Shown in pieces: positions 15,633-31,343 of a stretch of DNA of 64,000 nt (the first letter of the stretch is position 1; each line of letters starts with the position of its first letter). The notes beneath the pieces are model-generated. The model was not told the origin of the DNA. It saw only the letters and a list, made by a program, of their open reading frames with translations, and searched no databases. Position numbers and translations under genes: made by a program. Source of the DNA: Advenella sp. S44 (GTDB lineage Bacteria > Pseudomonadota > Gammaproteobacteria > Burkholderiales > Burkholderiaceae_B); assembly GCF_002810445.1 (NCBI RefSeq), contig NZ_NEXS01000003.1:434001-498000 (forward strand). Direction: 5' to 3'.

Positions 15633-15682
15633 AGTACGTACCAATAAATAGTACGTACCAATAAATGGTACGTACTATTAAA
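15632..15682. promoter_or_regulatory. Triple 17-bp operator array
   Basis: Three consecutive 17-bp units: TAGTACGTACCAATAAA twice identical, then TGGTACGTACTATTAAA. Each carries the palindrome GTACGTAC (15634, 15651, 15668). The array begins at the last base of the -10 hexamer and covers the start site. Cognate repressor is probably the GntR/UTRA protein encoded divergently at 14775-15512. Confidence 0.8.
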
Positions 15683-15709
15683 TCTAAAATAATGCCCAAG
15701 GAGACTATG

Positions 15710-16672
15710 ATGAAAAAATATGTCGTTGGACTGGCCGTTGGCTGGAGCCTTGCTGCTGTGAGCTGCGCGCAGGCGCAGTATCCCGAAAAACCTGTGTCAA
15801 TAATTGTGCCGTTTCCTGCCGGACAGACCGGCGATCTTATCGCCCGGACTGTGGGTGAAAAACTGTCTAAAGCGCTGGGCCAGGCATTTATTGTCGAAAA
15901 CAAAGGCGGGGCTGGGGGCACGATTGGTACGGGTTATGCAGCGCGCGCAAAACCTGACGGTTATACCTTGCTGTTGACCAGTACGGGTCCGTTTTCGATT
16001 GCGCCCCAATTGTATAAATCGCTAAGCTACGACCCGCTGAAAGATTTACAGCCTGTTGCCGAAATAGCCACCTCTCCGCAAGTATTGGCTGTGAACCCTG
16101 ACAACGGCATCAACTCCTTAAGAGACCTGGTGGCAAAGGCGAAACAGGAAGATTTAAACTTTGCTTCTGCCGGTACGGGCTCCACTCAGCATCTGACAAT
16201 GGAATATTTTCTAAGTACAGCGGGTGCAAAAATGACCCATGTTCCATTCAAAGGCAGCTCGGAGGCTCAGCCGCAGGTGATCAGCGGCCTGATTAGCGGA
16301 CTTTCTGACACGCTCCCGGCGATTTTGCCGCAGATCAAAGCAGGCAGACTCAAAGCGCTGGCTGTCGTCGATTCAGAGCGCTCAGAGTTTCTGCCTGACA
16401 CACCATCGACAGACCAGGCCGGGTTCCCAGGTCTGAATACCGTAGCCTTTTTTGCTTTGATGGCGCCCAAAGACACACCGCCAGACGTTATTGAATTGCT
16501 GAATACACAAGTGAATAAGACGTTAAAGGATCCGGCCATGCTTGAGCAGTTTAAAAAATTGGCACTGACTCCAGCCAAGGAACAAACCGCCGCGCAATTT
16601 ACCGCTTATCTGGAAGACGAGGCGCAAAAGTGGGAAAAAATTACGGATACAGCCAAAGTAGAAAAAAAATAA
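15710..16672 (+). CDS. Bug-family tripartite tricarboxylate transporter receptor (TctC-like)
   Basis: 320 aa. Signal peptide (MKKYVVGLAVGWSLAAVSCAQA) then YPEKPVSIIVPFPAGQTGD, the hallmark of Bug periplasmic binding proteins, and VENKGGAGGTIG. Binds a carboxylate solute, probably a tartrate-like hydroxy acid given the downstream dehydratases. Two adjacent ATGs (15707, 15710) follow AGGAG; the second has optimal spacing. No TctA/TctB membrane genes are nearby, so it must use a carrier encoded elsewhere or act as a sensor. Confidence 0.9.
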   Translation: MKKYVVGLAVGWSLAAVSCAQAQYPEKPVSIIVPFPAGQTGDLIARTVGEKLSKALGQAFIVENKGGAGGTIGTGYAARAKPDGYTLLLTSTGPFSIAPQLYKSLSYDPLKDLQPVAEIATSPQVLAVNPDNGINSLRDLVAKAKQEDLNFASAGTGSTQHLTMEYFLSTAGAKMTHVPFKGSSEAQPQVISGLISGLSDTLPAILPQIKAGRLKALAVVDSERSEFLPDTPSTDQAGFPGLNTVAFFALMAPKDTPPDVIELLNTQVNKTLKDPAMLEQFKKLALTPAKEQTAAQFTAYLEDEAQKWEKITDTAKVEKK

Positions 16673-16691
16673 TAATAGACGGAACCAGCAA

Positions 16692-17855
16692 ATGAAAATA
16701 ACCCGCATTATCGAACGTCCCGTGCATCTGAAAAGTAATATTTCAAATGCACTGGTCAATTTCTCTGAGCATACCGTGTCGCTTGTGGCTGTCGTGACTG
16801 ATCAGATACGCAATAACAAGCCGGTAGTCGGCTTATCTTTCAACTCTATTGGCAGATATGCGCAAAGCGGCATTATAAATAGGCGGATGATTCCCAGAGT
16901 AGCGCAGGAGCCGGCTGACGCATTATTGGACGAGAACGGAATGATCTGTGCGGAAAAAGTGTTGGCTTGCGCGCTGCGTAATGAAAAGCCAGGAGGACAC
17001 GGGGATCGTGCTGCAGCCGCCAGCGCATTGGAGCTGGCTATTTGGGATCTGAATGGAAAACTGCAGGATTGTCCGGTGAGCCAGTTGATCCGGCAGCGGT
17101 ACCGATTGGACCATGATGGGGGTCGTGTATTTGTGTACGCTGCTGGTGGCTACTATTATGAAGGCGAGGGTAGCCGAAAACTCAAGGACGAACTTCGATC
17201 CTACCAGGACAGCGGCTTTACGATGTACAAAATGAAAATCGGCGGCGCCAGCCTACAGGAGGACACGCGCCGGATTGAGGCAGCTCTGACCGTCGCAGGA
17301 GCGGGGAAAAATCTGGCAGTGGACGCCAATGGCCGGTTTGACCTTGCCGCCGCAAGAGCGTATGCCCAGGGCATTCAGCCCTATCAGTTGCGTTGGTTCG
17401 AAGAAGTCGGTGATCCCCTGGACTTTGAACTGAATGCAACTATCGCAAGCGAATATGAGGGGCCGATAGCGACAGGCGAGAATCTGTTCTCGCACCAGGA
17501 TGTGAAAAACCTTGCATTGTATGGCGGAATGCGTCGCAATCATGATGTTTTCCAGATGGATTCGGGATTGGCGTATGGCATCACAGAATATGCGCGCATG
17601 CTAAATGAAATAGAGCGTCGTGGCTTCAGCCGAAAATTCTGTTTTCCTCATGGCGGCCAGTTGATGGCCTTGCAAGTGGTCGCGGGTTTTGGTTTGGGAG
17701 GCTCCGAGGTATATCCGGGCATATTCCAGCCTATGGGCGGTTACGGCAATACAACGCAAGTAGTCGATGGAATGGTCAACGTCCCGGATGCGCCCGGCTT
17801 TGGGTTCGAATGCAAGCCGGAGCTCATTTCGCTTTTTGCAAATATGATTGGATAG
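16692..17855 (+). CDS. tarD: Enolase-superfamily D(-)-tartrate dehydratase-like protein
   Basis: 387 aa. Close in layout to the Bradyrhizobium D-tartrate dehydratase as remembered: NEKPGGHGDRAAAA, VFVYAAGGYYYEGEG, KMKIGG with the KxK pair Lys180/Lys182, metal ligands Asp211 (DANGRF), Glu237 or Glu238 and Glu263 (TGENLFSHQD), and catalytic His320 (FPHGGQ). Expected reaction: D-tartrate to oxaloacetate plus water via Mg2+-stabilised enolate. It lies 19 bp after the receptor gene and 12 bp before the class I dehydratase alpha gene, so it belongs to one operon. A related aldarate substrate cannot be excluded. Confidence 0.82.
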   Translation: MKITRIIERPVHLKSNISNALVNFSEHTVSLVAVVTDQIRNNKPVVGLSFNSIGRYAQSGIINRRMIPRVAQEPADALLDENGMICAEKVLACALRNEKPGGHGDRAAAASALELAIWDLNGKLQDCPVSQLIRQRYRLDHDGGRVFVYAAGGYYYEGEGSRKLKDELRSYQDSGFTMYKMKIGGASLQEDTRRIEAALTVAGAGKNLAVDANGRFDLAAARAYAQGIQPYQLRWFEEVGDPLDFELNATIASEYEGPIATGENLFSHQDVKNLALYGGMRRNHDVFQMDSGLAYGITEYARMLNEIERRGFSRKFCFPHGGQLMALQVVAGFGLGGSEVYPGIFQPMGGYGNTTQVVDGMVNVPDAPGFGFECKPELISLFANMIG

Positions 17856-17867
17856 GATTGAGAAAAA

Positions 17868-18710
17868 ATGCGTGAAATTAACACTGAACTGATAACGAAT
17901 ACGGTTGCACAATTGTGTATTGATGCCTGCCATCATTTGCCGGAAAACTTGGTGAGTAGTTTTCATCGTGCAGCGGAAACTGAAGTGTCCCCGTTGGGAA
18001 AACAGGTATTAATCAAACTAATCGAGAACGACCGCATTGCCAGAGAGAACAATGTTTCTTATTGCCATGATACGGGCTTGACCATTGTCTATGCGGAAGT
18101 GGGACAGGATGTTCATATTACAGGCTGTAATTTCAACGACGCGCTGCAGAGCGGGGTCAGAAAAGGCTATGCCGAGGGATTTATGCGTAAGTCCGTTGTC
18201 GGCGACCCGTTAACAAGAACGAATACGAATGACAATACACCTGCCGTTCTGCATACGGAAATTGTCCCGGGCGAACAGATTCGCTTGACGGTTTTGCCCA
18301 AGGGAGGGGGAAGTGAGAACTGGAGCACGATGAAATTTTTGCTGCCAGGCGAAGGTGTTCAGGGTGTTAAAGACTTTGTTCTTCAGGCAATTATCAAAGC
18401 CGGAGGAAGTGCCTGCCCGCCATTGACTGTTGGGGTCGGACTGGGAGGAAGTTTTGATAAGGTAACAGAAATTGCCAAGAAAGCCATTTTGCGAGACATT
18501 GGCGTACATAGTGAGCTGCCGCATATCGCACAGCTGGAGTCAGAGTTGCTGGCTGAAATAAACAGAACAGGAATCGGTCCGCAAGGTTACGGGGGTTCGA
18601 ATACTGCATTGTGGGTCGCTGTGGAAACGTATGCCTGTCATATTACGGCGCTGCCCGTTGCTGTCAATATACAGTGTCATGCCTCACGTCGCAAAACCGC
18701 CGTTATTTGA
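17868..18710 (+). CDS. ttdA: Class I fumarase/L(+)-tartrate dehydratase alpha subunit
   Basis: 280 aa. Contains the three cysteines expected to hold the 4Fe-4S cluster: Cys66 in SYCHDTG, Cys183 in SACPPLTVGVGLGG and Cys270 near the C terminus (NIQCHASRRK). Two-subunit members of this family dehydrate L-tartrate (to oxaloacetate), hydrate fumarate or act on mesaconate. The beta subunit gene follows 13 bp downstream. Context with a D-tartrate dehydratase-like gene favours tartrate. Oxygen-labile cluster expected; cytoplasmic. Confidence 0.82.
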   Translation: MREINTELITNTVAQLCIDACHHLPENLVSSFHRAAETEVSPLGKQVLIKLIENDRIARENNVSYCHDTGLTIVYAEVGQDVHITGCNFNDALQSGVRKGYAEGFMRKSVVGDPLTRTNTNDNTPAVLHTEIVPGEQIRLTVLPKGGGSENWSTMKFLLPGEGVQGVKDFVLQAIIKAGGSACPPLTVGVGLGGSFDKVTEIAKKAILRDIGVHSELPHIAQLESELLAEINRTGIGPQGYGGSNTALWVAVETYACHITALPVAVNIQCHASRRKTAVI

Positions 18711-18723
18711 AGAGAGATATGTC

Positions 18724-19287
18724 ATGAAAACCTATTACCTGACAATGCCCATTTCCGATGACCAGATCAGCCAGCTCAGGGTAGGCGATGAAGTATATCT
18801 GAGCGGGGTAATCTACATGGCGCGTGATGCTGCGCATAAGCGGCTTATTACGCTGCTTGATCAGGGAAAATTGCTGCCGGTAAATCTGAAGGGGCAGGTG
18901 GTTTTTTACGGTGGGCCTGGGCCGACCAAACCCGACCATGTCATCGGTGTGGTGGCGCCAACGTCGTCTTACCGAATGGACCCCTATACGCCGAAGTTAT
19001 TCGAATATGGGGTTAAAGCCGCTATCGGAAAAGGAAATCGTTCAAAGGAGATTCGCCAAGCCTGCATTGATTTTAACGCCGTGTCGTTCTCGGCCATTGG
19101 CGGCATTTCTGCAACTCTGTTTGCCTGTATCAGGAAAGCAGATGTGGTTGCGTATGAAGATCTTAAGACCGAAGCGATTCAGCGACTGGAAATAGAAAAC
19201 TTTCCCCTTCTGGTGACCAACGATACCTGCGGCGGTGACCTTTACGAGCAGGAAGTGCAAAAATATCGCAAGCTGCTTAACGCCTGA
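18724..19287 (+). CDS. ttdB: Class I fumarase/L(+)-tartrate dehydratase beta subunit
   Basis: 187 aa. Swivelling beta domain with LRVGDEVYLSGVIYMARDAAHKR near the N terminus and VVFYGGPGPTKPDHVIGVVAPTSSYRMD, conserved in TtdB/FumB-type C-terminal domains. The upstream in-frame start at 18631 would overlap ttdA by 80 bases; ATG 18724 gives the family length and is chosen. Works with the alpha subunit at 17868-18710. Fumarase or mesaconase activity remains possible. Confidence 0.85.
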   Translation: MKTYYLTMPISDDQISQLRVGDEVYLSGVIYMARDAAHKRLITLLDQGKLLPVNLKGQVVFYGGPGPTKPDHVIGVVAPTSSYRMDPYTPKLFEYGVKAAIGKGNRSKEIRQACIDFNAVSFSAIGGISATLFACIRKADVVAYEDLKTEAIQRLEIENFPLLVTNDTCGGDLYEQEVQKYRKLLNA

Positions 19288-19450
19288 AAAAAGACGTTAT
19301 CAAAAAGTCGAAAACGCTCCTTTTGCGGCATACTGTTTCATACGATTAAGTAGAACAACTGGCGATTGCGCTGTTGCTGGGATAGTGAAATTGGTACATT
19401 TGCAAAGACTGTGCTTTTTCAACTTCCTTTATTTAAACTTTAGAGTCATC

Positions 19451-20026
19451 ATGAACCACTTTTCCGATCGATTTCCCCCTTTGCCGCCAGAAACCTGGAG
19501 TGCCGAACAGAAGCAGTACGCGCAAGAAATTATCAATGGCCCGCGCGGTGCGCTTTTGTCGCCTTTCGTGCCCTTGATGCGCAGCCCCGAGCTCATGGCT
19601 CATGCCAGTCGTATGGGAGAGTACTTGCGGTATCGCAGTGCGCTGGGACAGCGGCTGTCTGAGTTGGCCATTCTGATTACATCAAGGCGGTGGTCGCAGC
19701 AGGTCGAATGGGCAATTCATGCGCCGATTGCGCTGCGCGAAGGGGTGGCTGAACAAACGATTGAGGCCATCCGCCAGGGCCGGCAACCTGAAGGTCTGCC
19801 AGAAGACGAGGCAGCACTTTATGCGTTTTCAACAGAGCTTTTTTGCAATCAGTCGGTCAGCGATCACACTTACGATCGCGCTTTGGCGCTTTTCGGCGAA
19901 CAGGGCGTGATGGACCTTGTCGGAATCAATGGCTACTATTCGTTGCTTTCCATGGTCATGAATGTAGCCAGAACGCCGGTTCCGGCTTCCACGGCGCAGC
20001 CGCTGCCGGCAATGCCTGCAGTATAG
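19451..20026 (+). CDS. Carboxymuconolactone decarboxylase/AhpD-like protein
   Basis: 191 aa. The central segment (LGQRLSELAILITSRRWSQQVEWAIHAPIALREGV) matches the all-helical CMD fold, but the CxxC redox pair of AhpD is missing; the one visible Cys (ELFCNQSV) lies outside the usual position. It lies 163 bp after ttdB, so it may be the operon's last gene or separately expressed. Function unknown; such proteins often accompany aromatic or hydroxy-acid catabolic genes. Confidence 0.7.
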   Translation: MNHFSDRFPPLPPETWSAEQKQYAQEIINGPRGALLSPFVPLMRSPELMAHASRMGEYLRYRSALGQRLSELAILITSRRWSQQVEWAIHAPIALREGVAEQTIEAIRQGRQPEGLPEDEAALYAFSTELFCNQSVSDHTYDRALALFGEQGVMDLVGINGYYSLLSMVMNVARTPVPASTAQPLPAMPAV

Positions 20027-20183: not shown

Positions 20184-21248
20184 TCAGGGCAGATTTTCCC
20201 GGAAAATGATTTGGCTTTGAACCGAATCGATTCCGCTCATGACCGGCCGTCGATCGCGCAAGTTTGCAAAGATCCGGATGCAGTTCATGGTTGATGACTG
20301 TGGATTCTGAGTAATGACCGCGTCCATGGTGCCGTCGATCAGCAAGGCGCGGGTGTCGGGGGTAAGTCCATGCCCGATAAACACAATTTTATGCGCCAGT
20401 CCTGCTTCCTTGAGTGCTCTTGCCACGCCGTCGGATGCGCCACCAATATTGTAGATGCCGGCAAGGTCCGGTGATTGTTCCAGCAATTGTCGGGTCAGGC
20501 GGTAGTTTTCTTCGGCACTGTCCAGCCCTTCGCGCAACCCAGCCACTTCAACAGTGGGAAACAGTTCCTTGAACATATACAGAAAGCCCATTTCCCGCTC
20601 TTCGTGAGCGCGATAGCTCAGACTACCGGCAATCATGGCAACTTTAGCTGGGCGCGCGCCGATGAAGCGGGCAATCAGGTACGCTGCCGTACGGCCGGCA
20701 GCACGATTGTCCAGTCCAACATACGCGGCGCGACGGGTGTTGGAAATATCGGTGATCAGCGTTATTACATGCTTGCCCTTATCGACAAGTTCCTCGACAG
20801 CATCGCGCACCAGCGGATGCTCGATTGCCATGCAGGCAACGCCATCGGCGCGTTCTGCCTGTCGTCTCAGGCTTGTGGCCAGTAACTCGGGATTGAAACC
20901 TTCCACATATTCGACTCTGCATTTGACGTTGTAGGGAGCCCAACTGTCCTGGGAGTAGGTGACGGTGTCGCCCAACATCCTGACAAAGCGATTGGTGCCT
21001 TTGGGTAGCACAAACGAAATACGCATGGCATTGGGTGTGAGCGCCGCATAAAGATCATGTTCGGGCAGATAGGACAGCTCGGCGGCAGCTTTCAGGACCC
21101 GTTGGGCAGTGGCTTCGCGTACACCCGGTCGCCGGTTCAGGACGCGGTCTACCGTCGCCGTGGACACATTGGCCAGTTTAGCGATATCAATGATATTGGC
21201 TTTGCCGGAGGCTTTCTCAGATTCCATCATTACATCAAAAACCATCAT
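20184..21248 (-). CDS. LacI-family transcriptional regulator
   Basis: 354 aa. N-terminal LacI helix-turn-helix (IIDIAKLANVSTATVDRVLNRRPGV at about residues 19-43) followed by a periplasmic-binding-protein-like effector domain. It is divergent from the TRAP/RuBisCO-like gene cluster starting at 21344, so it probably represses that cluster and responds to its sugar-acid substrate. No good Shine-Dalgarno; ATG at 21248, 21245 and 21230 are all possible. The TGTTAACA palindrome at 21270-21277 is the best operator candidate in the shared promoter. Confidence 0.85.
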   Translation of the reverse strand: MMVFDVMMESEKASGKANIIDIAKLANVSTATVDRVLNRRPGVREATAQRVLKAAAELSYLPEHDLYAALTPNAMRISFVLPKGTNRFVRMLGDTVTYSQDSWAPYNVKCRVEYVEGFNPELLATSLRRQAERADGVACMAIEHPLVRDAVEELVDKGKHVITLITDISNTRRAAYVGLDNRAAGRTAAYLIARFIGARPAKVAMIAGSLSYRAHEEREMGFLYMFKELFPTVEVAGLREGLDSAEENYRLTRQLLEQSPDLAGIYNIGGASDGVARALKEAGLAHKIVFIGHGLTPDTRALLIDGTMDAVITQNPQSSTMNCIRIFANLRDRRPVMSGIDSVQSQIIFRENLP

Positions 21249-21269
21249 TTAATTTAATTGACTCTAGTA

Positions 21270-21277
21270 TGTTAACA
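21270..21277. promoter_or_regulatory. Candidate LacI operator core
   Basis: TGTTAACA, an 8-bp perfect palindrome in the 95-bp divergent region between the LacI gene and the TRAP receptor gene. LacI-type operators are usually longer and imperfectly symmetrical, so this is only a candidate. Confidence 0.3.
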
Positions 21278-21343
21278 CTATATCGTTGCGGTTATAAAAA
21301 TAATAAAATCAAAAAACATCATTTTTTTTGTCTGGAGACAAAT

Positions 21344-22363
21344 ATGCAGAAGTATTCCCGCCGCAGCATGCTGCGCACTCTCTCTGCCATGCCGCTGGCG
21401 GGCGTCGTCGGTGCGTTACCCCAAGTGGCACGCGCTGCCGAATTTTCCTATAAGTATGGCAATAACCTGCCGCTGTCTCATCCACTGAACATTCGTGCCA
21501 AGGAAGCTGCCGATGAAATCCGGGAAAAATCCGGCGGACGAGTCGATATTGCCATTTTCCCTAACAACCAGCTGGGCGGTGACACAGATATGCTGTCGCA
21601 AGTGCGCTCGGGTGGAATCCAGTTCTTTACGCCGTCTTCACTTGTGATTGCCACGCTGGTGCCAGTGGCCGCCATTAATGCGCTGGGCTTTGCATTCAGT
21701 GATTATGATCAGGTGTGGAAAGCAATGGACGGCGAGTTGGGTGCGCATGTGAGGGCGTCGATTCGCAAGATCCGTCTGTATGCCTTTGACAAAATGTGGG
21801 ACAACGGCTTTCGCCAAATGACCAGTAGCAAGGGGCCGATAGAGCAGGCATCTGATCTGGAAGATCTGAAAATCCGGGTGCCGGTCAGCCCACTGTCGAT
21901 TTCCATGTTCAAAGGGCTGGGCGCGGCACCAACCAGCCTTCAGTTCAGTGAAGTGTATTCGTCCCTGCAGACCAAAATCGTGGATGCTCAGGAAAACCCT
22001 TTGCCGATTATCCAGGTGGCAAAGCTGTATGAAGTGCAAAAATACTGCTCTCAGACCAATCACATTTGGGATGGTTTCTGGTTTATTGCCAATGGCGCGG
22101 CATGGGATCGTTTGCCCGACGATCTGAAAGCGATTGTTGCCGATGGTATCAATGGCGCGGGTATGCGCCAGCGCGAAGACATCAAAAAGCTGAATGAATC
22201 AGTCCAGACTGAATTGCAAGCGAAGGGGCTTGCCTTTAATGCGCCTGGCCCTGAAACGTTCCGGGAAGCCTTGCGTAATGCAGGTTTCTATCAAGAGTGG
22301 AAGCGCCGCTTTGGTGATGAGGCCTGGGCAGCGCTGGAAACCTCGGTAGGGAAACTGGTTTAG
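21344..22363 (+). CDS. TRAP transporter solute receptor (DctP family)
   Basis: 339 aa. N-terminal SRRSMLRTLSAMPLAGVVGA is a twin-arginine-like signal ending VARA; the mature part starts EFSYKYGNNLPLSHPLNIRAKEA, typical of DctP. The Arg that binds the substrate carboxylate is expected in the LKIRVPVSPLS segment. GGAGACAA precedes ATG 21344; the upstream in-frame start at 21269 is rejected. Its stop overlaps the start region of the fused membrane component. Probable ligand: the sugar acid degraded by the downstream VOC/RuBisCO-like/kinase genes. Confidence 0.9.
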   Translation: MQKYSRRSMLRTLSAMPLAGVVGALPQVARAAEFSYKYGNNLPLSHPLNIRAKEAADEIREKSGGRVDIAIFPNNQLGGDTDMLSQVRSGGIQFFTPSSLVIATLVPVAAINALGFAFSDYDQVWKAMDGELGAHVRASIRKIRLYAFDKMWDNGFRQMTSSKGPIEQASDLEDLKIRVPVSPLSISMFKGLGAAPTSLQFSEVYSSLQTKIVDAQENPLPIIQVAKLYEVQKYCSQTNHIWDGFWFIANGAAWDRLPDDLKAIVADGINGAGMRQREDIKKLNESVQTELQAKGLAFNAPGPETFREALRNAGFYQEWKRRFGDEAWAALETSVGKLV

Positions 22364-22365
22364 TG

Positions 22366-24264
22366 ATGGAAAACGTAATAATGACCGAGCCTGCCATGGC
22401 GATGCAAACGCCGGCTGCAACAACCGCGTCCGGTACTGGCAGGCTTGTGCTTGCCGCAGACAAGGCACTGGGCCGCTGCGTTGAGCTGGTCGCAGTTGCC
22501 TTGATCATTCTAGAAGTTGTGATTCTGTTTTCAGGTGTTGCCGCAAGATACATACTGCATGTGCCGCTGGTGTGGACCGATGAACTGGCATCAATCCTGT
22601 TTCTGTGGTTGTCCATGCTGGGCGCTGTAATCGCGCTGCGACGCGGACAACACATGCGAATGACAGCCTTCATTGATCGTGTCTCGCCCAGGCAGCGGCT
22701 GTTGCTCGAAGGGTTTGCTTACTCTGCCTCGCTGGCTTTTCTGCTGCTGTTTCTTTATCCGGCATTTGAGTATGCCTACGAAGAATCCTATATTGTGACG
22801 CCAGCACTGGAAATCAGTAATGCATGGCATGCTGCGGCATTGCCGGCAGGTATTGCACTCATGATTCTGACTTCGGTGTTCCGCATGGTCATCAGCACAG
22901 ATCGCAGGCAAATGTTGATCAGCGCCGGCGTGACGTTGACGTTGATGGTCATATTCTGGGCAGCCCACCCCCTGCTCATGGAGCTTGGTAAATTCAATCT
23001 AGTGATTTTCTTTGTGTTTGTGGTGGCCGCTTGCGTTTTTTCCGGTGTCCCGATTGCATTTTCGTTTGCGCTGGCCACGTTCGGATACCTGACTCTCACT
23101 ACCCAAACGCCAATTGTGGTAATGGTAGGGCGGTTGAATGAAGGCATGTCCCATCTGATACTGCTGGCTGTGCCGCTCTTTATCTTTCTGGGGGCGCTTA
23201 TTGAGATGACTGGTATGGCGCGCGCCATGATCCAGTTCCTTGCCAGTTGCCTGGGGCATGTTCGCGGCGGACTCTCTTATGTATTGATTGGCGCTATGTA
23301 CCTGGTGTCCGGCATTTCGGGTTCCAAGATTGCGGATATGGCTGCTATTACGCCGGTGCTGTTTCCCGAGATGGAAAAACGGGGCGCCAAAAAAGGTGAA
23401 CTCGTGGCATTGCTATCGGCCACAGGGGCGCAGACCGAAACGATTCCTCCATCTATCGTGCTGATCACTATCGGCTCGGTCACCGGCGTATCTATCGCAG
23501 CGCTTTTTACCGGGGGTATATTGCCAGCCGTTGTTCTGGGGTTGTGCCTGTGCGTGGTTGTCGGCTGGCGCTACCGTGGCGAAGACCTGACAAAGGTCGC
23601 CAAAGTGCCCAAGCGTGACATTTTCCGCTTTCTGCTAATTGCCTTGCCAGCCATCTCCTTGCCGTTTGTGATACGCGCTGCGGTGGTGGAAGGTATTGCG
23701 ACAGCGACCGAGGTATCGACCATTGGCGTGGTCTATTCGATCATGCTGGGCCTGCTGGTCTATCGGCAGTTTGACTGGAAGCGTGTGACACCTATTCTGG
23801 TAGAAACGGCCACGCTCTCTGGCGCCATCATGCTGATTATTGGTTGCGCCACGGCCATGGCCTGGGCGCTCACCCAATCGGGATTTTCCAGTGACCTGGC
23901 AGCGCTGATGGCGGACGTGCCCGGAGGCGGCTATGGATTTCTGATTATCTCGGTGTTTGCATTCATCATACTGGGAAGCATTCTGGAGGGCATTCCGGCC
24001 ATCGTCCTGTTCGGCCCCTTGTTGTTCCCTGTTGCGCGCGCCCTGGATATTCACGATGTGCATTATTCAATCGTTGTTATCTTTGCAATGGGTATCGGAC
24101 TGTTCGCGCCACCATTTGGCGTGGGTTATTACGGCGCTTGCGCCATTGGCAAAGTCAATCAATCCGAGGGCATGCGATATATCTGGGGCTATATTGTTGC
24201 GCTGTTCGTGGGACTGATGATCGTCACGTTCGTGCCCTGGATATCTATTGGTTTTATCAAATAA
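22366..24264 (+). CDS. Fused TRAP transporter membrane protein DctQ-DctM
   Basis: 632 aa. Residues 1 to about 190 form the small four-helix DctQ subunit (WTDELASILFLWLSMLGAVIAL) and residues about 200-632 the large DctM subunit with twelve segments (PLFIFLGALIEMTGMARAMI, SGSKIADMAAITPVLFPEM). Fused QM proteins are a known TRAP variant. A GTG immediately upstream (22363) overlaps the receptor stop and could also serve. Sodium-coupled uptake at the inner membrane. Confidence 0.9.
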   Translation: MENVIMTEPAMAMQTPAATTASGTGRLVLAADKALGRCVELVAVALIILEVVILFSGVAARYILHVPLVWTDELASILFLWLSMLGAVIALRRGQHMRMTAFIDRVSPRQRLLLEGFAYSASLAFLLLFLYPAFEYAYEESYIVTPALEISNAWHAAALPAGIALMILTSVFRMVISTDRRQMLISAGVTLTLMVIFWAAHPLLMELGKFNLVIFFVFVVAACVFSGVPIAFSFALATFGYLTLTTQTPIVVMVGRLNEGMSHLILLAVPLFIFLGALIEMTGMARAMIQFLASCLGHVRGGLSYVLIGAMYLVSGISGSKIADMAAITPVLFPEMEKRGAKKGELVALLSATGAQTETIPPSIVLITIGSVTGVSIAALFTGGILPAVVLGLCLCVVVGWRYRGEDLTKVAKVPKRDIFRFLLIALPAISLPFVIRAAVVEGIATATEVSTIGVVYSIMLGLLVYRQFDWKRVTPILVETATLSGAIMLIIGCATAMAWALTQSGFSSDLAALMADVPGGGYGFLIISVFAFIILGSILEGIPAIVLFGPLLFPVARALDIHDVHYSIVVIFAMGIGLFAPPFGVGYYGACAIGKVNQSEGMRYIWGYIVALFVGLMIVTFVPWISIGFIK

Positions 24265-24285
24265 TTCCGATTCTCCTACAGGTTC

Positions 24286-24315
24286 ATGATACCTGTTGCT
24301 GCAGGCATCATTTTT
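24286..24315 (+). terminator. Rho-independent terminator or attenuator inside the cluster
   Basis: ATGATACCTG (24286-24295) pairs with CAGGCATCAT (24302-24311) around TTGCTG with one mismatch, followed by five T. It lies 21 bp after the TRAP gene and 26 bp before the VOC gene, so it may limit read-through into the enzyme genes. Confidence 0.65.
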
Positions 24316-24336
24316 CTCAAATAGCTGGAACACAAT

Positions 24337-24876
24337 ATGAGTACATTCTTTGGCGAAATACGCCAACTGGGATATGTCGTCGACGATATCGAAGAGGCAA
24401 TGGCCTACTGGAGTAACACGCTGGGCGTCGGCCCCTGGTATTACAACCCCAGGGTACCGATCAGAAATTATCAATATGATGGTCAGAATTACGAGCCACA
24501 TAATTCAGTGGCGCTGGCCAACTCCGGTTTCGTGCAGGTCGAACTGATACAGACGCGCAACGATGTGCCCTCGATGTACCGGGATTTCCGGCAGGCGGGC
24601 CGAACGGGCTTGCAGCATGTCGCCTATTGGACAGAACACTATGATGCTGATCTTGAACGGTTGCTCAATCAGGGCTTCAAGCCGCGCATGAGCGGCGAGG
24701 TCGGCGAGCAGGGCAGGTTCATCTATTTCGATACGGAATATCATCCGGGTACAGTGATCGAGCTGTCCGAAGTGGCGGGGCCCAAAGGACGCCTGTTTGA
24801 TCTGATTCGCGCTACCTCGGAAAACTGGAACGGGCAACAGGCCATTAGACCGTTTCCGGACCTGGATACATTATGA
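24337..24876 (+). CDS. VOC-superfamily protein (glyoxalase_4/epimerase-like)
   Basis: 179 aa. Two betaalphabetabetabeta modules: LGYVVDDIEEAMAYWSNTLGVGPWYY at the start and GLQHVAYWTEHYDADLERLLNQGFKP in the second half. The His of GLQHVAYW and the Glu of VIELSE fit VOC metal ligands, while the first position is Gln (IRQLGYVV) rather than His. Members include methylmalonyl-CoA epimerase and various isomerases and dioxygenases. The stop overlaps the RuBisCO-like gene by four bases, arguing for a role in the same pathway, possibly isomerising the substrate before phosphorylation (inference). Confidence 0.78.
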   Translation: MSTFFGEIRQLGYVVDDIEEAMAYWSNTLGVGPWYYNPRVPIRNYQYDGQNYEPHNSVALANSGFVQVELIQTRNDVPSMYRDFRQAGRTGLQHVAYWTEHYDADLERLLNQGFKPRMSGEVGEQGRFIYFDTEYHPGTVIELSEVAGPKGRLFDLIRATSENWNGQQAIRPFPDLDTL

Positions 24877-26147
24877 GCGAGACCGAAGTACACGCGCGTT
24901 ATGTGGTGGAAACGCCGTTCGAGCCGGCCCAAGTGGCTCAAATCATGGCGGGTGAGCAATCTAGCGGTACGTTTACTCGGGTTGCTGGCGAGACCGACGA
25001 ATTGCGCAGCAGAACCCGTGCTACAGTAACTGCCATTCATGAGTTGCCGGCGGGCAATGCGCCCAGCCTGCCTAATGCCTGGCTTGAGCGCAAGAATATT
25101 GGCGGCCCATGGCGGCGGGCACAAATTGATATTTCATTTCCGATAGCCAATTTTGGCGCAAACCTGGCGACATTAGCTGCGACGGTCTCGGGTAATCTGT
25201 TCGATCTGGGTGAAGTCACCGGTCTGCGTCTGGAATCGCTCACATTACCCCCTTCGTTCCGGATGCGTTTTGCCTTGCCATGCCTGGGCGTTGAAGGCAC
25301 ACGGTCCAGTATTGGCGTGACTGACGGCGTCATGGTTGGCACTATCATAAAGCCCAATGTCGGCATGAGTGCGGCGCAAACCGCCGCGCTGGTCAAAACC
25401 CTTTGCGAGGCCGGCGTTGACTTTATCAAGGACGACGAGGTGTGTGCCAATCCGGACCATGCTCCGCTTGCCCAGCGTGTGCCCGCAGTGATGGCGGTCA
25501 TCCGTGAACATGCCCAGCGCACCGGAAAAAAGGTGATGATGGCATTCAATATCAGCGATGATTTGGATAGTATGCGGCGTCACGCCGAGCTGGTCGAGCA
25601 GCAGGAAGGGACCTGCATAATGGCCAGCCTCAATTATTGTGGGTTCTCGGCAATCCAGAGTTTAAGAAACAGCACGTCGCTGGCGATTCATGGACATCGT
25701 AACGGTTTTGGAGCACTCTCGCGGCACCCCATGCTGGGTATGGCATATCAACCGTATCAAACGTTGTGGCGGCTGGCGGGGGTGGACCATATGCATGTGC
25801 ATGGCTTGCAGGGAAAATTCTCACAGTCAGATAGCGAGGTGATAGCCGCAGCATCCGACTCCCTGACGCGCATGTCTGACACGGTCGATGACCGGGTGTT
25901 GCCGGTGTTCTCCTCGGGACAATGGGCCGGTACGGTGCCGGTGACCTGGCAATCGGTCCAAAGCCAGGACCTGTTGTTCATGTCGGGCGGAGGCATCCTG
26001 GCCCATCCAATGGGGCCGACGGCCGGTGTGATTAGCTTGCGCCAGGCCTGGGCTGCACAGCAGGAAGGGATAGCGCTGGAGCAATTCGCTCGTAATATGC
26101 CCGAACTTAAAGCTGCACTGGCATTCTTTGGCGACAAGCAATCATGA
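24873..26147 (+). CDS. RuBisCO-like protein (form IV, RuBisCO large-chain family)
   Basis: 424 aa. The RuBisCO fold motifs are legible: GTIIKPNVG with Lys160 (spinach K175 position) but Asn162 where RuBisCO has K177; AGVDFIKDDE with Lys186, Asp188 and Glu189 matching the carbamate/metal site; AIHGHR with His273; DHMHVHGLQGKF with His308 and Lys315 at the H327 and loop-6 K334 positions; LPVFSSGQW with Ser348; and SGGGILAHPMGPTAG for phosphate binding. Loss of K177 marks a non-CO2-fixing RuBisCO-like protein. Start and stop overlap both neighbours (ATGA at each end). Together with the DUF1537 kinase downstream it resembles acid-sugar pathways in which a phosphorylated 3-oxo acid is cleaved by a RuBisCO-like protein. 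Confidence 0.88.
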   Translation: MSETEVHARYVVETPFEPAQVAQIMAGEQSSGTFTRVAGETDELRSRTRATVTAIHELPAGNAPSLPNAWLERKNIGGPWRRAQIDISFPIANFGANLATLAATVSGNLFDLGEVTGLRLESLTLPPSFRMRFALPCLGVEGTRSSIGVTDGVMVGTIIKPNVGMSAAQTAALVKTLCEAGVDFIKDDEVCANPDHAPLAQRVPAVMAVIREHAQRTGKKVMMAFNISDDLDSMRRHAELVEQQEGTCIMASLNYCGFSAIQSLRNSTSLAIHGHRNGFGALSRHPMLGMAYQPYQTLWRLAGVDHMHVHGLQGKFSQSDSEVIAAASDSLTRMSDTVDDRVLPVFSSGQWAGTVPVTWQSVQSQDLLFMSGGGILAHPMGPTAGVISLRQAWAAQQEGIALEQFARNMPELKAALAFFGDKQS

Positions 26148-27523
26148 GTCTGAAGTTCGGCTGGTATGGTGATGATTTTACCGGGGCAACCGATACGCTT
26201 GCCGTTGCGGCGCGCGCAAACCTGCGTAGCATCCTGTTTCTGGACGTGCCCACCGACGCGCAACTGGCGCGTGTCGGTCCGCTGGATGCAATTGGTATAG
26301 CCGGTACAGCTCGTGGCATGGACCCCCAACAAATGCAGGACTATCTACCCCAAATCGGCAACTTCTTCCGGGACCAGCATGTGCCGGTGCTGCATTACAA
26401 ATGTTGTTCCACTTTTGACAGTGCGGCGCATACCGGTAATCTTGCGGCCGCAGTCAGGATCCTGGGCGATTATGTGGGAGCGCCGTTTGCCCTGTTTGTT
26501 GGTGGACAGCCCGATATTGGCCGTTACTGCTGTTTCGGCAATCTATTTGCCGCTGCCGGCGAGTCGGGTCAGGTGTATCGTATTGACAGGCATCCCACGA
26601 TGCAGTGTCATCCGGTGACACCGATGCATGAAGCCGACCTGAGATTGCATCTGCAATCGCAGGCAATGGCAGATGTTACTAATATTCCTTATACGGCATA
26701 TCAACAGCACCCGGCCCTCCTTGATGCGCAAGTGGATCGATCCGTTCAGAGCTACCGTAGCGCCAACGCCAACGGCAAAATGAACACAGGCGTACTTTTC
26801 GACGTTTCTGATAGTAGGCAACTCGCAAGCGTGGGGCGACAGATCCTGCGTATCGTCAATGACCATAGCACAGCATTGGTTGTTGGCTCAAGTGTGGTGC
26901 TGCAGGCGGTGGTGGCAGCAGAAAACATCGGCGAAAGCTTCCATCGCGCTCCAGAGCGCGTGATGGGCGACCCGCAACGTCCGGTACAAACCGGCCCGAC
27001 CTTCGTGCTGGCGGCAAGCCTGTCTCCGGTTACCGCCGCGCAGGTTCAGGCTGCCAGCGGATATGTGAAGCTGCCGTTGAAGGCACGCTCGCTGTTGAAT
27101 GACGCTGTTTACCGGACTGAGCAATGTCAACGTATTTGCGATGAGCTGAATGCTAACCGTAATGTGCTGGCCTACGTTGACCAGAAAAACGGGCGCGACT
27201 GCGCAATAAAATCGGGGGACCTGGCCACGGCGACGGCCCGGTTTGTACATTTGACGCTGCAATTGTCGGCCGAACGGGGTATACGCATGGGTCAGCTTGG
27301 CATTGCAGGTGGAGATACCTCAAGCCAGGCGATCGCGCACCTGGGTGTGTGGGCATTGTCTTATTCAACCGTACTGTCGCCCGGAGTGACCGTTTGCTCG
27401 ATGCATAGCGACAACCCTGCACTACACGGCTTGACTGTCATGTTAAAGGGCGGGCAGATGGGCAGCGAGGATATTTTCGATAAATTTCGGCAGTGCCGGT
27501 ATTCTGATACAGCACAAGAATAG
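26144..27523 (+). CDS. Four-carbon acid sugar kinase family protein (DUF1537, OtnK/OiaK-like)
   Basis: 459 aa. N-terminal domain starts LKFGWYGDDFTGATDTLAVA with the conserved Asp-Asp (residues 10-11), and the C-terminal domain carries GIAGGDTSSQAIAHLG, the nucleotide-binding motif of this family. Members phosphorylate four- to five-carbon acid sugars such as erythronate, threonate or 3-oxo-isoapionate. The gene overlaps the RuBisCO-like gene by four bases, so kinase and RuBisCO-like protein are coupled and probably act in sequence: phosphorylation, then carbon-carbon cleavage. The exact substrate is not determinable from sequence. Confidence 0.87.
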   Translation: MSLKFGWYGDDFTGATDTLAVAARANLRSILFLDVPTDAQLARVGPLDAIGIAGTARGMDPQQMQDYLPQIGNFFRDQHVPVLHYKCCSTFDSAAHTGNLAAAVRILGDYVGAPFALFVGGQPDIGRYCCFGNLFAAAGESGQVYRIDRHPTMQCHPVTPMHEADLRLHLQSQAMADVTNIPYTAYQQHPALLDAQVDRSVQSYRSANANGKMNTGVLFDVSDSRQLASVGRQILRIVNDHSTALVVGSSVVLQAVVAAENIGESFHRAPERVMGDPQRPVQTGPTFVLAASLSPVTAAQVQAASGYVKLPLKARSLLNDAVYRTEQCQRICDELNANRNVLAYVDQKNGRDCAIKSGDLATATARFVHLTLQLSAERGIRMGQLGIAGGDTSSQAIAHLGVWALSYSTVLSPGVTVCSMHSDNPALHGLTVMLKGGQMGSEDIFDKFRQCRYSDTAQE

Positions 27524-27681: not shown

Positions 27682-28533
27682 TCAATTGAACGCAGGTTCG
27701 AGCTTTTCACCTTGTAGCATAATTCTATATAGATATCGATATTCTTCAGGGTCATAATCGGCATTTGCCTGATGCATCACACTGCGATTGTCCCAAATAA
27801 CAAGATCACCTGCACGCCACTGATGACGATATTCATATTTGGATTGGGTCGCGTGTGCATAAAGCTGCTCAATAAGTGCAAACCCTTCTTCGGGATCCAT
27901 ACCTTCGATCCCTTCCATACGGCCGGTATTCAGGTATAGGGCTGGACGCGCGCTTATAGGATGCCTGATAACGATCGGTTGTATGACATTCGGGATCGCA
28001 GCATACTCTTCCGGCGTGAGTTTGGCAAAGCTGCGCGGGCTCCTGCTGCTTTCATATACATGTTTGGAAAATAATCGGGATATTTTCTCTTTCATATCGT
28101 CGGAAAGATCGTCATAGGCTTTTCTTACATCAACGAACTGTGTATCACCACCATATGAAGGTATTTCAACTGCGACGAGACTCGTTGCCATTGGAGGTGC
28201 CAGATAATTTGAATGATCGGTATGATAATTTTCACCTCGTACCTGCAGTTTTCCATTTTTTCTTGGGAGATCCCGTGTCGAATTACATCCGACCAGGGGA
28301 TAGTCGGGGAGGACAAACTTCTTTAGCTGTTGATCCATGAGCTGACCAAATATTCTGCCTGCCTCAATAAATTGTGGAGGAGTCAGATGCTGGTCTCGAA
28401 AGACCAGCACGGCGTGTTCAACAAAGAGGTCGTTCAGTTCCTTTTTTATCGCATCGTTCACGGGCCTGGTCAGATCAATATTCGAGATTTCTGCACCAAA
28501 GACGTTATTGATAGGTGAAACTTGTAAATTCAT
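27682..28533 (-). CDS. TauD/TfdA-family Fe(II)/2-oxoglutarate dioxygenase
   Basis: 283 aa. The facial triad is visible: His104 and Asp106 in ENYHTDHSNY and distal His254 in SVMHQANADY; Arg270 in YLYRIML binds 2-oxoglutarate. The fold start SPINNVFGAEISNIDLTRPV is typical. Such enzymes hydroxylate sulfonates, aryloxyacids or other carboxylates. It is 24 bp downstream of a Bug receptor gene on the same strand, so it may be the last gene of the 33.3-27.7 kb operon. Substrate unknown. Strong AGGAGAC before the ATG. Confidence 0.87.
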   Translation of the reverse strand: MNLQVSPINNVFGAEISNIDLTRPVNDAIKKELNDLFVEHAVLVFRDQHLTPPQFIEAGRIFGQLMDQQLKKFVLPDYPLVGCNSTRDLPRKNGKLQVRGENYHTDHSNYLAPPMATSLVAVEIPSYGGDTQFVDVRKAYDDLSDDMKEKISRLFSKHVYESSRSPRSFAKLTPEEYAAIPNVIQPIVIRHPISARPALYLNTGRMEGIEGMDPEEGFALIEQLYAHATQSKYEYRHQWRAGDLVIWDNRSVMHQANADYDPEEYRYLYRIMLQGEKLEPAFN

Positions 28534-28557
28534 GACTATGTCTCCTGTGTAATGGCC

Positions 28558-29541
28558 TTAACGGCTAAGTCCTGTTTGTCTGGCAACCGTTGCCCATCTG
28601 TCCGTTTCAGCAGTGATTTTTTTTGTGAAATCCTCGCGACTGCTACCCTGTATTTGCGCTCCTTCACTTGCCAAACTGTCTTTCAGTTTGCTATCGGAAA
28701 GCACTGCATTGATGTTTTCGTGGAGTGACTGGACCACTTTGCTGGGCGTTCCTTTCGGAGCCATGATGCCCCACCAGTTGCTCGCATCGACGTCAATTCC
28801 TTCTTCTTTAAGTGTCGGAATATCTGGAATCAGTGCAACTCGCTCCGGTCCTGCGATAGACAGTATTTTCACTTTTCCAGAGTTTATGTACGGCTGCATC
28901 TGAATCAAACTGCCTAAGGCGACCTGCACGTTTCCCGAGGCCAGATCGACAAGAGCAGGAGCACCACCCCTGTACTGGACGACGGTCAAGTCCGCGCCCG
29001 TTTTTAGCTTGAACAACTCGATAGCAAAATGTTGAAAGCTCGCTACACCTGAAGAGCCAAAATTTACCTTTCCGGGGTTTTCCTTCGTGTAGGAAATAAG
29101 CTCCTTGATCGAGTTGACAGGCAGAGATGCGTTGACTGCAATGACGCTTGGGCCCTGTCCTAACATTGCGACTGGAACAAATGAATCGACTGGATCGTAG
29201 TTCAGTTTCATGACAGACGGATTCATAGTGAATGTGGAGGAGATTAGTAAAAGCGTATTGCCGTTAGGCGCGGCTCTGGCGGCTTTTTCCGACCCGATCG
29301 TGCCTCCTGCTCCTGGTTTGTTTTCTATGATGACGCTGCGATGAAGGCGAGCAGTGAGTAAATTCGCTACTGCGCGGCCTACAATGTCGTTACTGCCGCC
29401 CGGAGCGAAAGGCACAATGATCTGTAACGGCTGTGATGATTCCTCGGCTTGCGCCCAGCCCTGTGCAAACGCAAATAATCCGCATAAACTCAGTGTGTAT
29501 CGCAGGACTTTACGCCGAATGGCTAATTTTGTGTTAGTCAT
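28558..29541 (-). CDS. Bug-family TctC-like solute receptor
   Basis: 327 aa. Signal peptide (about 31 residues, ending GWAQA) then QIIVPFAPGGSNDIVGRAVANLL and IIENKPGAGGTIGSEKAARA, the defining Bug motifs. Periplasmic capture of a carboxylate. GGAGAC precedes the start. Lies between the amidohydrolase and dioxygenase genes; a second Bug receptor heads the same operon (32308-33306), so two related ligands may be captured. No TctAB genes nearby. Confidence 0.9.
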   Translation of the reverse strand: MTNTKLAIRRKVLRYTLSLCGLFAFAQGWAQAEESSQPLQIIVPFAPGGSNDIVGRAVANLLTARLHRSVIIENKPGAGGTIGSEKAARAAPNGNTLLLISSTFTMNPSVMKLNYDPVDSFVPVAMLGQGPSVIAVNASLPVNSIKELISYTKENPGKVNFGSSGVASFQHFAIELFKLKTGADLTVVQYRGGAPALVDLASGNVQVALGSLIQMQPYINSGKVKILSIAGPERVALIPDIPTLKEEGIDVDASNWWGIMAPKGTPSKVVQSLHENINAVLSDSKLKDSLASEGAQIQGSSREDFTKKITAETDRWATVARQTGLSR

Positions 29542-29572
29542 GAGTTGTCTCCTCTAGGACATAATCTCGATT

Positions 29573-30466
29573 TCAAGAATTGAAACCGTAGAGTTTTCTC
29601 GGGTTATCCACGAGTATTTTTTGTAGATGGTCGTCAAAATCAGTCCAGATCGCGATGCGATTGAGCGCTTGAATGTCATCCACATCGTTGAATGGCTCAA
29701 TGCGCGCTTTGCTGCGGGGCTGACCAGCTTGTGCACCGGGATGCGGCCAGTCGCTTCCCCAAATGACGCGTTCAGGATTGGCTTCTATCAGTGAGCGAGC
29801 TATCGGTTCGACGTCGGCGCAGTCGGTAAGAGTAGAAATGCGCTGAGCTGCGGACATTTTTACCCAAACTTTTCCAAGCGCCATCAGATCTAGCAGTCGC
29901 GGGAATCCTACTTGCTCATTTCCCAGGGAGGCGCTTGCCTGAGAAAAATGATCGACAACGACGTCGGTAGGAAGCGAAAGGATGGTTTTGTACAAGTGAT
30001 CCAATACCTGCAGATTGGTAAATATTTGTATATGCCACCCGAATGCAGCGATTCGGTCGGCTATCCATTGCAACTCGTTTTCCGCGTATAAGGGATCACT
30101 GATTCCGTGAGTCTGCAGATTGACGCGAGCGCCTCTGATCCCTCCTTCATGCATTGCCCTCAATTGTGAGTCTGTTGTGTACCGGTCGATTACCGCAACG
30201 CCTCTTCCTATTTGCGGTATTTGGTTTAAAGCGTCCAACAGACAAGAATTGTCTGATCCGTACGGTGACGGCTGCACCAGAACAACCCTACCTAGTTGGC
30301 AATCGTTCAAATGTGATAACAACCCGCTCAACGGAGCAAATGCCGGTGTGTAAGTCCGCTGTGGTGAGAGCGGGTACAAATCGTGCCTTTCAAAAATATG
30401 CGTATGACAGTCGCATGCGTTTTCTGGCATGACAAACTCTATCGTGCTGCTATTGTCTTGTCGCAT
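29573..30466 (-). CDS. Amidohydrolase-family lactonase/isomerase-like protein (COG3618, LigI-like)
   Basis: 297 aa TIM-barrel hydrolase. N-terminal CDCHTHIF gives His21 and His23; C-terminal WGSDWPHPGAQ gives the conserved Asp. Relatives include 2-pyrone-4,6-dicarboxylate hydrolase, sugar-acid lactonases and galactarolactone isomerase. In an operon with an HpcH/HpaI aldolase, a lactone-opening step before aldol cleavage is plausible. GAGGT precedes the start; 31 bp upstream of the Bug gene. Confidence 0.8.
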   Translation of the reverse strand: MRQDNSSTIEFVMPENACDCHTHIFERHDLYPLSPQRTYTPAFAPLSGLLSHLNDCQLGRVVLVQPSPYGSDNSCLLDALNQIPQIGRGVAVIDRYTTDSQLRAMHEGGIRGARVNLQTHGISDPLYAENELQWIADRIAAFGWHIQIFTNLQVLDHLYKTILSLPTDVVVDHFSQASASLGNEQVGFPRLLDLMALGKVWVKMSAAQRISTLTDCADVEPIARSLIEANPERVIWGSDWPHPGAQAGQPRSKARIEPFNDVDDIQALNRIAIWTDFDDHLQKILVDNPRKLYGFNS

Positions 30467-30490
30467 GATTACCTCGCTTTTCGCAGTCCA

Positions 30491-31297
30491 TCACGTATAT
30501 TGAATATCGGAGACCTGTTTTGCCTTAGTAGTACACGCTGACAGCAAAAATGCGATATCAGTTCCGGTGGAGACATATCTGGCGCCCATTTTCACAAATT
30601 TCTCTACCAGGTCAGGTCTGGACGACAGCCCTCCGACGCCACAATGCTTTCCTGCTTTCTTACATGCCGCGATGGTGGTTGAAAATGCTTTTTCGACCAA
30701 AGGGTGATCGTATTGACCTGGAATACCCATATCGGCCGTCAGATCGTTGGTCCCGATCAATACCATGTCGACACCGTCGACAGCCACTATTTCATCTGCT
30801 TTGTCCACTGAACAAGCCGTTTCAAATTGAACGATAACCATTGTTGCTTTGTTCAAGACTGGATAAGCCTGGGCTGCTGGAATGGCTCGGTACTCCAAAT
30901 GCGGAAGCCCGCCAGCCGCAGAGCGATCCCCCTCTGGCTGGAATTTTGCATAGGAAACGATCTTCTGTGCTTCGTGCGCGGATGTAATGTGAGGTGCAAT
31001 AATGCCTAGCGCACCGGCATCGAGCACACGAGAAATCCATTCCGGACTTTTTGCCGGTACACGGACGAACGGAGCGATGCCGATACTGAGTGCTGCCATA
31101 CAGATTTGTCCAGTAGTATCTACGGAGAGACTACTGTGCTCCATATCGATATATATAGAGTCGAACCCTGCCGTTTTAGCAATTTGAGCAATTTCGATTC
31201 CGCGGACCAGGCGCACAGTCATTGAAGAGACGAGCTCGTTTTTTGCCAGTTTTTCACGAACATTGTTTTTCAGAATATCGTGGGCTTGCGTGTTCAT
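30491..31297 (-). CDS. HpcH/HpaI-family class II aldolase
   Basis: 268 aa. FDSIYIDMEHSSLSVD, VIVQFETACSVDKADEI and MVLIGTNDLTADMG carry the metal-binding Glu/Asp and phosphate/carboxylate-binding residues of the family (HpaI, GarL, RhmA). These enzymes reversibly cleave 4-hydroxy-2-oxo acids to pyruvate plus an aldehyde. Tandem with a lactonase-like amidohydrolase and a hydroxyacid dehydrogenase, it probably performs the carbon-carbon cleavage of this operon's pathway. Confidence 0.85.
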   Translation of the reverse strand: MNTQAHDILKNNVREKLAKNELVSSMTVRLVRGIEIAQIAKTAGFDSIYIDMEHSSLSVDTTGQICMAALSIGIAPFVRVPAKSPEWISRVLDAGALGIIAPHITSAHEAQKIVSYAKFQPEGDRSAAGGLPHLEYRAIPAAQAYPVLNKATMVIVQFETACSVDKADEIVAVDGVDMVLIGTNDLTADMGIPGQYDHPLVEKAFSTTIAACKKAGKHCGVGGLSSRPDLVEKFVKMGARYVSTGTDIAFLLSACTTKAKQVSDIQYT

Positions 31298-31343
31298 TTG
31301 TTTTTCCTATTGCGTGAATGGAGATGTCTGTTTCTTGGCGGCG

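Follow-up and report, generated by a model that had tools for sequence, protein, structure and literature searches.

D-apionate pathways that run through the kinase OiaK and through OiaX or OiaT were reportedly described by Carter in 2018, and in these systems a RuBisCO-like protein (RLP) adjoins a DUF1537 kinase, often together with a TRAP transporter. The OtnI-OtnK-OtnC tetronate pathway of Zhang (2016) is said to follow the order isomerase, DUF1537 kinase, decarboxylase. According to PMC6302742, the RLP partners in apionate pathways act on 3-oxo-isoapionate 4-phosphate. RLP reactions on record in PMC6302742, PMC10176493 and PMC8914248 are decarboxylation, transcarboxylation/hydrolysis and oxygenation, and PMC10176493 presents RLPs as examples of new chemistry arising on the RuBisCO fold, with only a handful characterised. 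Here we analyse an RLP operon in a 64,000-nucleotide stretch of Advenella sp. S44 (assembly GCF_002810445.1, contig NZ_NEXS01000003.1, positions 434,001 to 498,000), hereafter the window. The operon is of the RLP and DUF1537 pathway type, a VOC enzyme occupying the position of the oxidoisomerase, and it is real and widespread; no description of a VOC-RLP-DUF1537 operon was recognised in the open-licence literature. Its genes are the following, with numbers beginning with L and G used below as our handles for loci and genomes:

20184-21248, minus strand: LacI-family regulator with a LacI helix-turn-helix and a periplasmic-binding-type ligand domain (from the list of open reading frames (ORFs); Pfam LacI and Peripla_BP_4 over cut-off)
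21269-22363 as listed ORF, likely 21344-22363, plus strand: TRAP receptor of the DctP family (Pfam DctP over cut-off)
22363-24264, plus strand: fused TRAP small and large permease DctQM (Pfam DctQ and DctM over cut-off)
24337-24876, plus strand: VOC protein with a methylmalonyl-CoA-epimerase-like fold (Pfam Glyoxalase_4 over cut-off)
24873-26147, plus strand: RLP of the VOC-linked clade (Pfam RuBisCO_large, PF00016, and RuBisCO_large_N, PF02788, over cut-off)
26144-27523, plus strand: DUF1537 sugar-acid kinase, SBD_N and NBD_C domains (Pfam domains over cut-off; distant from OiaK)

A first-pass annotation had already placed these six genes, with the LacI gene divergent, and all six stand at the positions it gave. 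The four-base overlaps that it claimed between the VOC and RLP genes (24873-24876) and between the RLP and kinase genes (26144-26147) are both present in the ORF coordinates, and, as it also held, neither a lactonase nor an oxidoreductase is among the genes of the operon. The receptor scored 235 bits against DctP model TIGR00787 (cut-off 175 bits), and its start is likely the ATG at 21344 behind a GGAG, rather than 21269. The logic of the operon is that of OtnI-OtnK-OtnC, with VOC and RLP in place of OtnI and OtnC. In our best reading, held tentatively and with a little less than even confidence, the VOC protein is an isomerase, redox-neutral and dependent on a metal, in the place of ApnO, followed by the kinase and then by carbon-carbon cleavage by the RLP, and the whole would be a self-contained sugar-acid catabolic operon.

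Conservation was surveyed in 268 genomes of the window's family, with matches accepted at E <= 1e-60 for the RLP, E <= 1e-20 for the VOC protein and E <= 1e-10 for PF16896. An RLP was present in 92 genomes, 84 of them with 60-100% identity and 10 with 44-51%, since G187 and G188 hold both types. VOC relatives were found in 98 genomes, 15 of which had only weaker paralogs, and a VOC protein of at least 62% identity occurred in 83 of the 84 genomes with this RLP type and in none of the others. The sole RLP genome without it, G091, is 77% complete, is divided into 550 contigs and gave a partial RLP match. Conservation of the VOC gene with the RLP-kinase pair, on which the first-pass annotation had made its proposal depend, is thus borne out in the family. 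VOC, RLP and kinase genes were adjacent in 30/30 loci for which sequence was retrieved, counting that of the window; in some of them the kinase match was incomplete or truncated where the locus ends. A chance neighbourhood is rejected on this adjacency together with the co-occurrence in 83/84 genomes; the Fisher value for the co-occurrence takes no account of relatedness and is given no weight. Identity to the window decreased in the same order in 24/24 loci (L010-L033), from VOC (79-86%) over RLP (65-72%) to kinase (42-52%); in L030, for example, the three values were 84, 66 and 47%.

The operon extends beyond the family. RLPs were found in 23 of 398 Pseudomonadota genomes, at 27 places, and the VOC gene adjoined the RLP gene in 7 of the 24 places fetched (the window's own, G574 and G310 being left out). 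Plasmids of Azospirillum, Roseomonas, Sulfitobacter, Alloyangia, Paracoccus and a comamonad carry the bare set of LacI, TRAP, VOC, RLP and kinase genes, the TRAP genes standing between a divergent LacI gene and the VOC gene. A Neorhizobium plasmid has the same gene order plus an SDR gene. An amino-acid-type ABC transporter replaces TRAP in L047, and L040 has a matching family-3 binding protein. LacI relatives lie in the same divergent position in, for example, L053 (84%), L084, L085 and L134-L137. Exact palindromes were listed for 26 upstream regions as candidate LacI operators, and none was common to them by eye. Comparative genomics establishes both the gene set and its conservation, and the operon is widespread in alpha- and betaproteobacteria.

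The RLP belongs to a clade of its own. A tree of 93 rows, 91 of them different, placed 56 of the 57 VOC-linked rows, two repeat fetches included in the 56, in one clade with support 100/100 and no other row within it. The OiaX clade, which comprises the PGAP-named OiaX of L103 and four further rows, was separate on a long branch (100/100); only the first carries the OiaX name, and the other four are assigned to the clade by the tree. The proposal of the first-pass annotation also depended on an RLP outside characterised clades, and as far as the anchors allowed this agrees with the tree, where the protein sits outside the OiaX clade. An OiaT anchor was sought as a Xanthobacter-named record, and none was among the best 80 of 440 relatives of the Ancylobacter RLP alignment. 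The best NCBIfam match of the window RLP is OiaX NF042437, at 414.6 bits against a cut-off of 700. An identity as OiaX, 3-oxo-isoapionate-4-phosphate decarboxylase, is ruled out by this score, by the separate clade, which the genomic comparison establishes, and by residues E28, N108 and H308. Five RLPs flagged for in-frame stops (L014, L038, L041, L051 and L052) are full length, the flag there being the terminal stop.

The nearest solved chain is 3nwr_A, with 633 bits over residues 3-422, and in the printed alignment PDB 3nwr carries all six residues that mark the VOC-linked clade (D111, N162, D229, A238, G314 and T354). Its source organism is Burkholderia fungorum. The deposited title says only 'A rubisco-like protein', and a search of the open-licence literature found no paper on 3nwr.

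Residues of the RLP were mapped to RuBisCO numbering through alignments. With its N-terminal and catalytic domains and with the carbamate Lys, Asp and Glu (K186, D188 and E189), the protein is a member of the RuBisCO superfamily. Equivalents of E60, T65, N123, K175, K201, D203, E204, H292, H294, R295, H325, H327 and K334 are retained, and the only departures among the tabulated positions are W66 to F, K177 to N and H298 to F. RuBisCO forms I-III are rejected as an identity (form III model 224.7 of 497 bits; K177N, W66F and H298F). Most of the residues given in the first-pass annotation stood, namely K160 (K175), N162 (K177), K186 (K201), D188, E189, H308 (H327) and K315 (K334); its His273 is H292, and the equivalent of H294 is instead His275. 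The position of K177 holds N in 53/56 VOC-linked rows, S in 31/32 other rows and A or S in 5/5 OiaX-clade rows. Because K177 is replaced throughout this RLP group, N162 alone says little. Equivalents of E60, N123 and H327 (E28, N108 and H308 in the window RLP) are present in all 56 VOC-linked and all 32 other rows, whereas 5/5 OiaX-clade rows have D, G and Q there, a pattern observed here rather than taken from a published definition. The OiaX clade of the D-apionate pathways has neither the N123 nor the H327 equivalent and the window RLP has both, which may point to a cleavage different from simple decarboxylation.

In a rival reading the RLP would be an O2-dependent oxygenase, as in the D-hamamelose pathway, which the first-pass annotation had not considered. 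The kinase would then make a ketose phosphate, which the RLP with O2 would convert to 3-phosphoglycerate and glycolate, and the VOC protein would make the ketose from an aldose or remove the extra carbon. According to PMC8914248, an Ochrobactrum anthropi RLP performs the last step of hamamelose assimilation, linked to 3-phosphoglycerate and glycolate, and the title of Kim 2018, as it appears in the reference list of PMC10176493, names an oxygenase. Moreover, the rows closest to the VOC-linked clade are the SDR-linked RLPs L062, L063, L096 and L104, and the SDR-type RLP loci L062, L063, L098 and L167 have genes for pyruvate kinase or enolase nearby, which would fit 3-phosphoglycerate as a product. 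The D-hamamelose RLP, compared here by description only, likewise ends a branched-sugar pathway. However, the window operon is without a dehydrogenase, a lactonase or any other oxidoreductase, and we consider an oxygenase unlikely here.

The known D-apionate pathway itself (OiaK with OiaX or OiaT), with its upstream genes elsewhere or of unrecognised families, can be weighed on the genes ApnO and ApnL. PF16896, presumably the family of ApnO, was found in 8 of the 268 family genomes, all 8 belonging to the 10 that carry the other RLP type (G188, one of the 8, carries both types), and in none of the 82 genomes with only the VOC-linked type at E <= 1e-10; this absence, too, is established by genomics. 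The candidate ApnO was placed in PF16896 by Pfam, and no NCBIfam model matched it. Among the best 80 of the 440 loci of the contig scan, as counted from their list, 44 had an ApnO relative in the stretch, none of those with VOC, and 5 had VOC. The window's own genome (G000) had no PF16896 match, and two apionate-lactonase queries, which score best, though below cut-off, against the NCBIfam model ApnL, gave no match there, with no positive control in that genome. The window operon differs from the D-apionate pathways in having a VOC protein and no ApnO or ApnL relative found, and in an RLP and kinase below the OiaX and OiaK cut-offs. OiaX and OiaK remain the best NCBIfam matches of RLP and kinase, as the apionate pathway would predict; its case was already poor at scores of 415 and 258 against cut-offs of 700, and the missing PF16896 and lactonase relatives (the latter with the limit just given), the separate RLP clade and the differing residues make it very improbable.

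The VOC protein is a member of its superfamily by its Glyoxalase_4 domain, its VOC fold and its invariant metal-type residues. Gln10, Glu69, His94 and Glu142 are invariant in 68/68 operon-type rows, 3/3 PdxA-linked rows and 24/24 paralogs, and they fit a metal site; by analogy, we take them to be the metal ligands, at positions that we assume to be equivalent to those of methylmalonyl-CoA epimerase. An AlphaFold2 model (five sequences) reached a mean pLDDT of 85 at best, the other four models 71-77, and its best structural matches are methylmalonyl-CoA epimerases (3gm5 and 1jc4). These share the fold and the single VOC domain, but the window operon is without CoA genes, and methylmalonyl-CoA epimerase as an identity is rejected (TIGR03081, 23.9 bits against 114.95). 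VOC paralogs of <60% identity that we inspected adjoin SDR, cupin or aromatic-degradation genes and gave no clue to the reaction. One of them, in the window's own genome (contig C16, L064 9305-9838; 48% identity), adjoins an SDR gene with a cupin gene nearby, and by eye also lies near alcohol and aldehyde dehydrogenase-like genes.

The kinase is a DUF1537 protein, with SBD_N at 151.5 bits and NBD_C at 71.9 bits over cut-off. OiaK, 3-oxo-isoapionate kinase, is rejected as its identity at 258.1 of 700 bits, and the 3-oxo-tetronate kinase model gave 139 bits (cut-off 350).

Where head and tail of the operon separate, the VOC gene stays with the head. Such loci came from a search of the family of G484 and from the contig scan with the Ancylobacter RLP alignment (best 80 of 440 relatives). 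A full LacI-TRAP-VOC head is joined to RLP and kinase genes of the apionate/SDR group in Bradyrhizobium (L203, L213 and L217) and in G484 (L095), and at each of the six sites diagnostic of the VOC-linked clade the RLP of L095 carries the residue of the apionate group instead. In Bradyrhizobium australiense (L213 6440-6541) the VOC frame ends after 33 codons, by pseudogene formation or sequence error. L211 and L212 have LacI (50-52%) and VOC (66-67%) relatives and a distant TRAP, again with an apionate/SDR-group RLP-kinase pair. The swapped rows require three changes in the RLP tree, two of them forced by starred branches, and the same holds in the kinase tree; both are 'quick' trees, and L095, a duplicate left out of that RLP tree, was placed in the 93-row tree.

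In other loci the RLP itself is replaced. In Azospirillum thermophilum the complete head, at 58/70/68/74% identity, is followed by kinase, PdxA, DeoR and aldolase genes, with no RLP in the stretch read; its PdxA is 74% identical to that of L145. Its VOC protein groups as sister with the one from an Azospirillum that has an RLP (100/96), in a tree whose outgroup did not hold together, two far paralogs being misplaced across a very long branch. Three genomes of the family of G484 (L143-L145) combine a TRAP receptor (61-62%), VOC (58-60%), kinase, PdxA and aldolase, with no LacI and no RLP match; the kinase of L144 scores 450 bits for OiaK, below cut-off, L144 has a DeoR regulator, and the PdxA of L145 scores 320 bits, over cut-off. 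VOC and DUF1537 kinase with PdxA and a DeoC/LacD aldolase, without RLP, was thus seen in L143, L144, L145 and L226/L230, an apparent alternative tail, with DeoR in L144 and L226/L230.

The exchange of tails, the most informative of these findings, is established by genomics. Since one VOC head works with two RLP-tail groups and a PdxA tail, the VOC product should be a compound common to the tails, and we infer that the head delivers this shared intermediate. The exchanges strengthen the case for VOC as the isomerase that the first-pass annotation suggested, though as an inference. The VOC protein might instead act outside the line before the kinase, as epimerase or isomerase of the tail product or as a repair enzyme for a reactive dicarbonyl intermediate. 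Its closest folds, the methylmalonyl-CoA epimerases, speak for this, and RLP and PdxA tails could both yield a ketose phosphate for a common VOC enzyme. Against it, VOC stays with the import and regulation head when head and tail separate, and among the three enzymes it shows the highest conservation; we give such a role only a small chance.

In the pathway that we prefer, with VOC before the kinase, TRAP, or the amino-acid-type ABC transporter in some relatives, would import a sugar acid, which LacI would sense. The VOC metal enzyme would rearrange this acid, redox-free, to a 3-oxo acid similar to 3-oxo-isoapionate; most simply, it would turn an imported isomer into 3-oxo-isoapionate or a closely related branched 3-oxo acid, and so would occupy the position of the oxidoisomerase ApnO in D-apionate pathways. 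The DUF1537 kinase would then phosphorylate the terminal hydroxyl, and the RLP, with Mg2+ on carbamylated Lys186, would cleave the beta-keto acid phosphate. This cleavage may be a decarboxylation or a transcarboxylation/hydrolysis, leading to central metabolites, e.g. 3-phosphoglycerate and a small hydroxy acid.

Several observations weigh against this pathway as deduced from genomes. The nearest solved relatives of the VOC fold are epimerases, and the OiaK match of the kinase, its best in NCBIfam (NF042436), stays far below cut-off. PdxA normally oxidises a 3-hydroxyl before decarboxylation. Because PdxA usually needs this hydroxyl, it is hard to reconcile with a position behind the same head, and a 3-oxo intermediate fits only with PdxA acting as a decarboxylase. 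The complete pathway may include a redox step, since SDR-family matches recur in some VOC loci (L056, L138, L141, L082, L211 and L212). Exchanged tails may also have changed specificity. Lastly, L142 (G754) has matches to LacI, TRAP receptor and VOC, with no DctQM, RLP or kinase in 19 kb, which suggests a decayed or split operon, and L209 has the RLP-kinase pair of the L211/L212 group with no VOC match. Coupling of VOC, RLP and kinase is therefore not absolute outside the family.

By our own deduction, and as a long shot, the VOC protein may be a sugar-acid isomerase of a new kind, replacing ApnO and making a branched 3-oxo acid by a 1,2-hydrogen shift or an alpha-ketol shift. A fitting natural substrate would be a branched uronic acid, e.g. 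aceric acid (3-C-carboxy-5-deoxy-L-xylose) of pectin rhamnogalacturonan II (RG-II). Its ketose form would be converted to the 1-phosphate and, with a transcarboxylase/hydrolase RLP, to 3-phosphoglycerate and lactate, and a PdxA-aldolase tail would give dihydroxyacetone phosphate and acetaldehyde. If this were true, all tails seen would make sense. Two RLP-kinase pairs lie behind GH127 genes: in L101 (6774-8630) the best NCBIfam match of this gene is 'aceric acid hydrolase' at 103 bits (cut-off 950), and in Croceibacterium (L108 7187-10272) the gene, annotated beta-L-arabinofuranosidase, touches the RLP gene. Esterase and galactosidase genes accompany them, and these loci are possibly an aceric-acid branch of RLP pathways.

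Both flanks of the operon carry further catabolic genes. Upstream, 15665-20026 looks like a second acid cluster, with a Bug-type receptor (by eye), an enolase-superfamily sugar-acid dehydratase-like gene, Fe-S fumarase/tartrate-dehydratase-like alpha and beta genes and a CMD protein. Downstream, 27682-32279 on the minus strand is a putative third catabolic cluster, with a TauD-type dioxygenase, a Bug-type receptor (by eye), an amidohydrolase, an HpcH/HpaI aldolase and a 2-hydroxyacid dehydrogenase.

The VOC-linked RLP clade is common and has a solved relative in 3nwr, for which our search turned up no function, and the minimal operon offers receptor, isomerase, kinase and lyase, each of them assayable. 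Natural exchanges of tails limit what the VOC product can be. The chemistry of the VOC superfamily includes that of glyoxalases, epimerases and dioxygenases; if the VOC protein of this operon replaces ApnO, a sugar-acid isomerase would be added to the superfamily.

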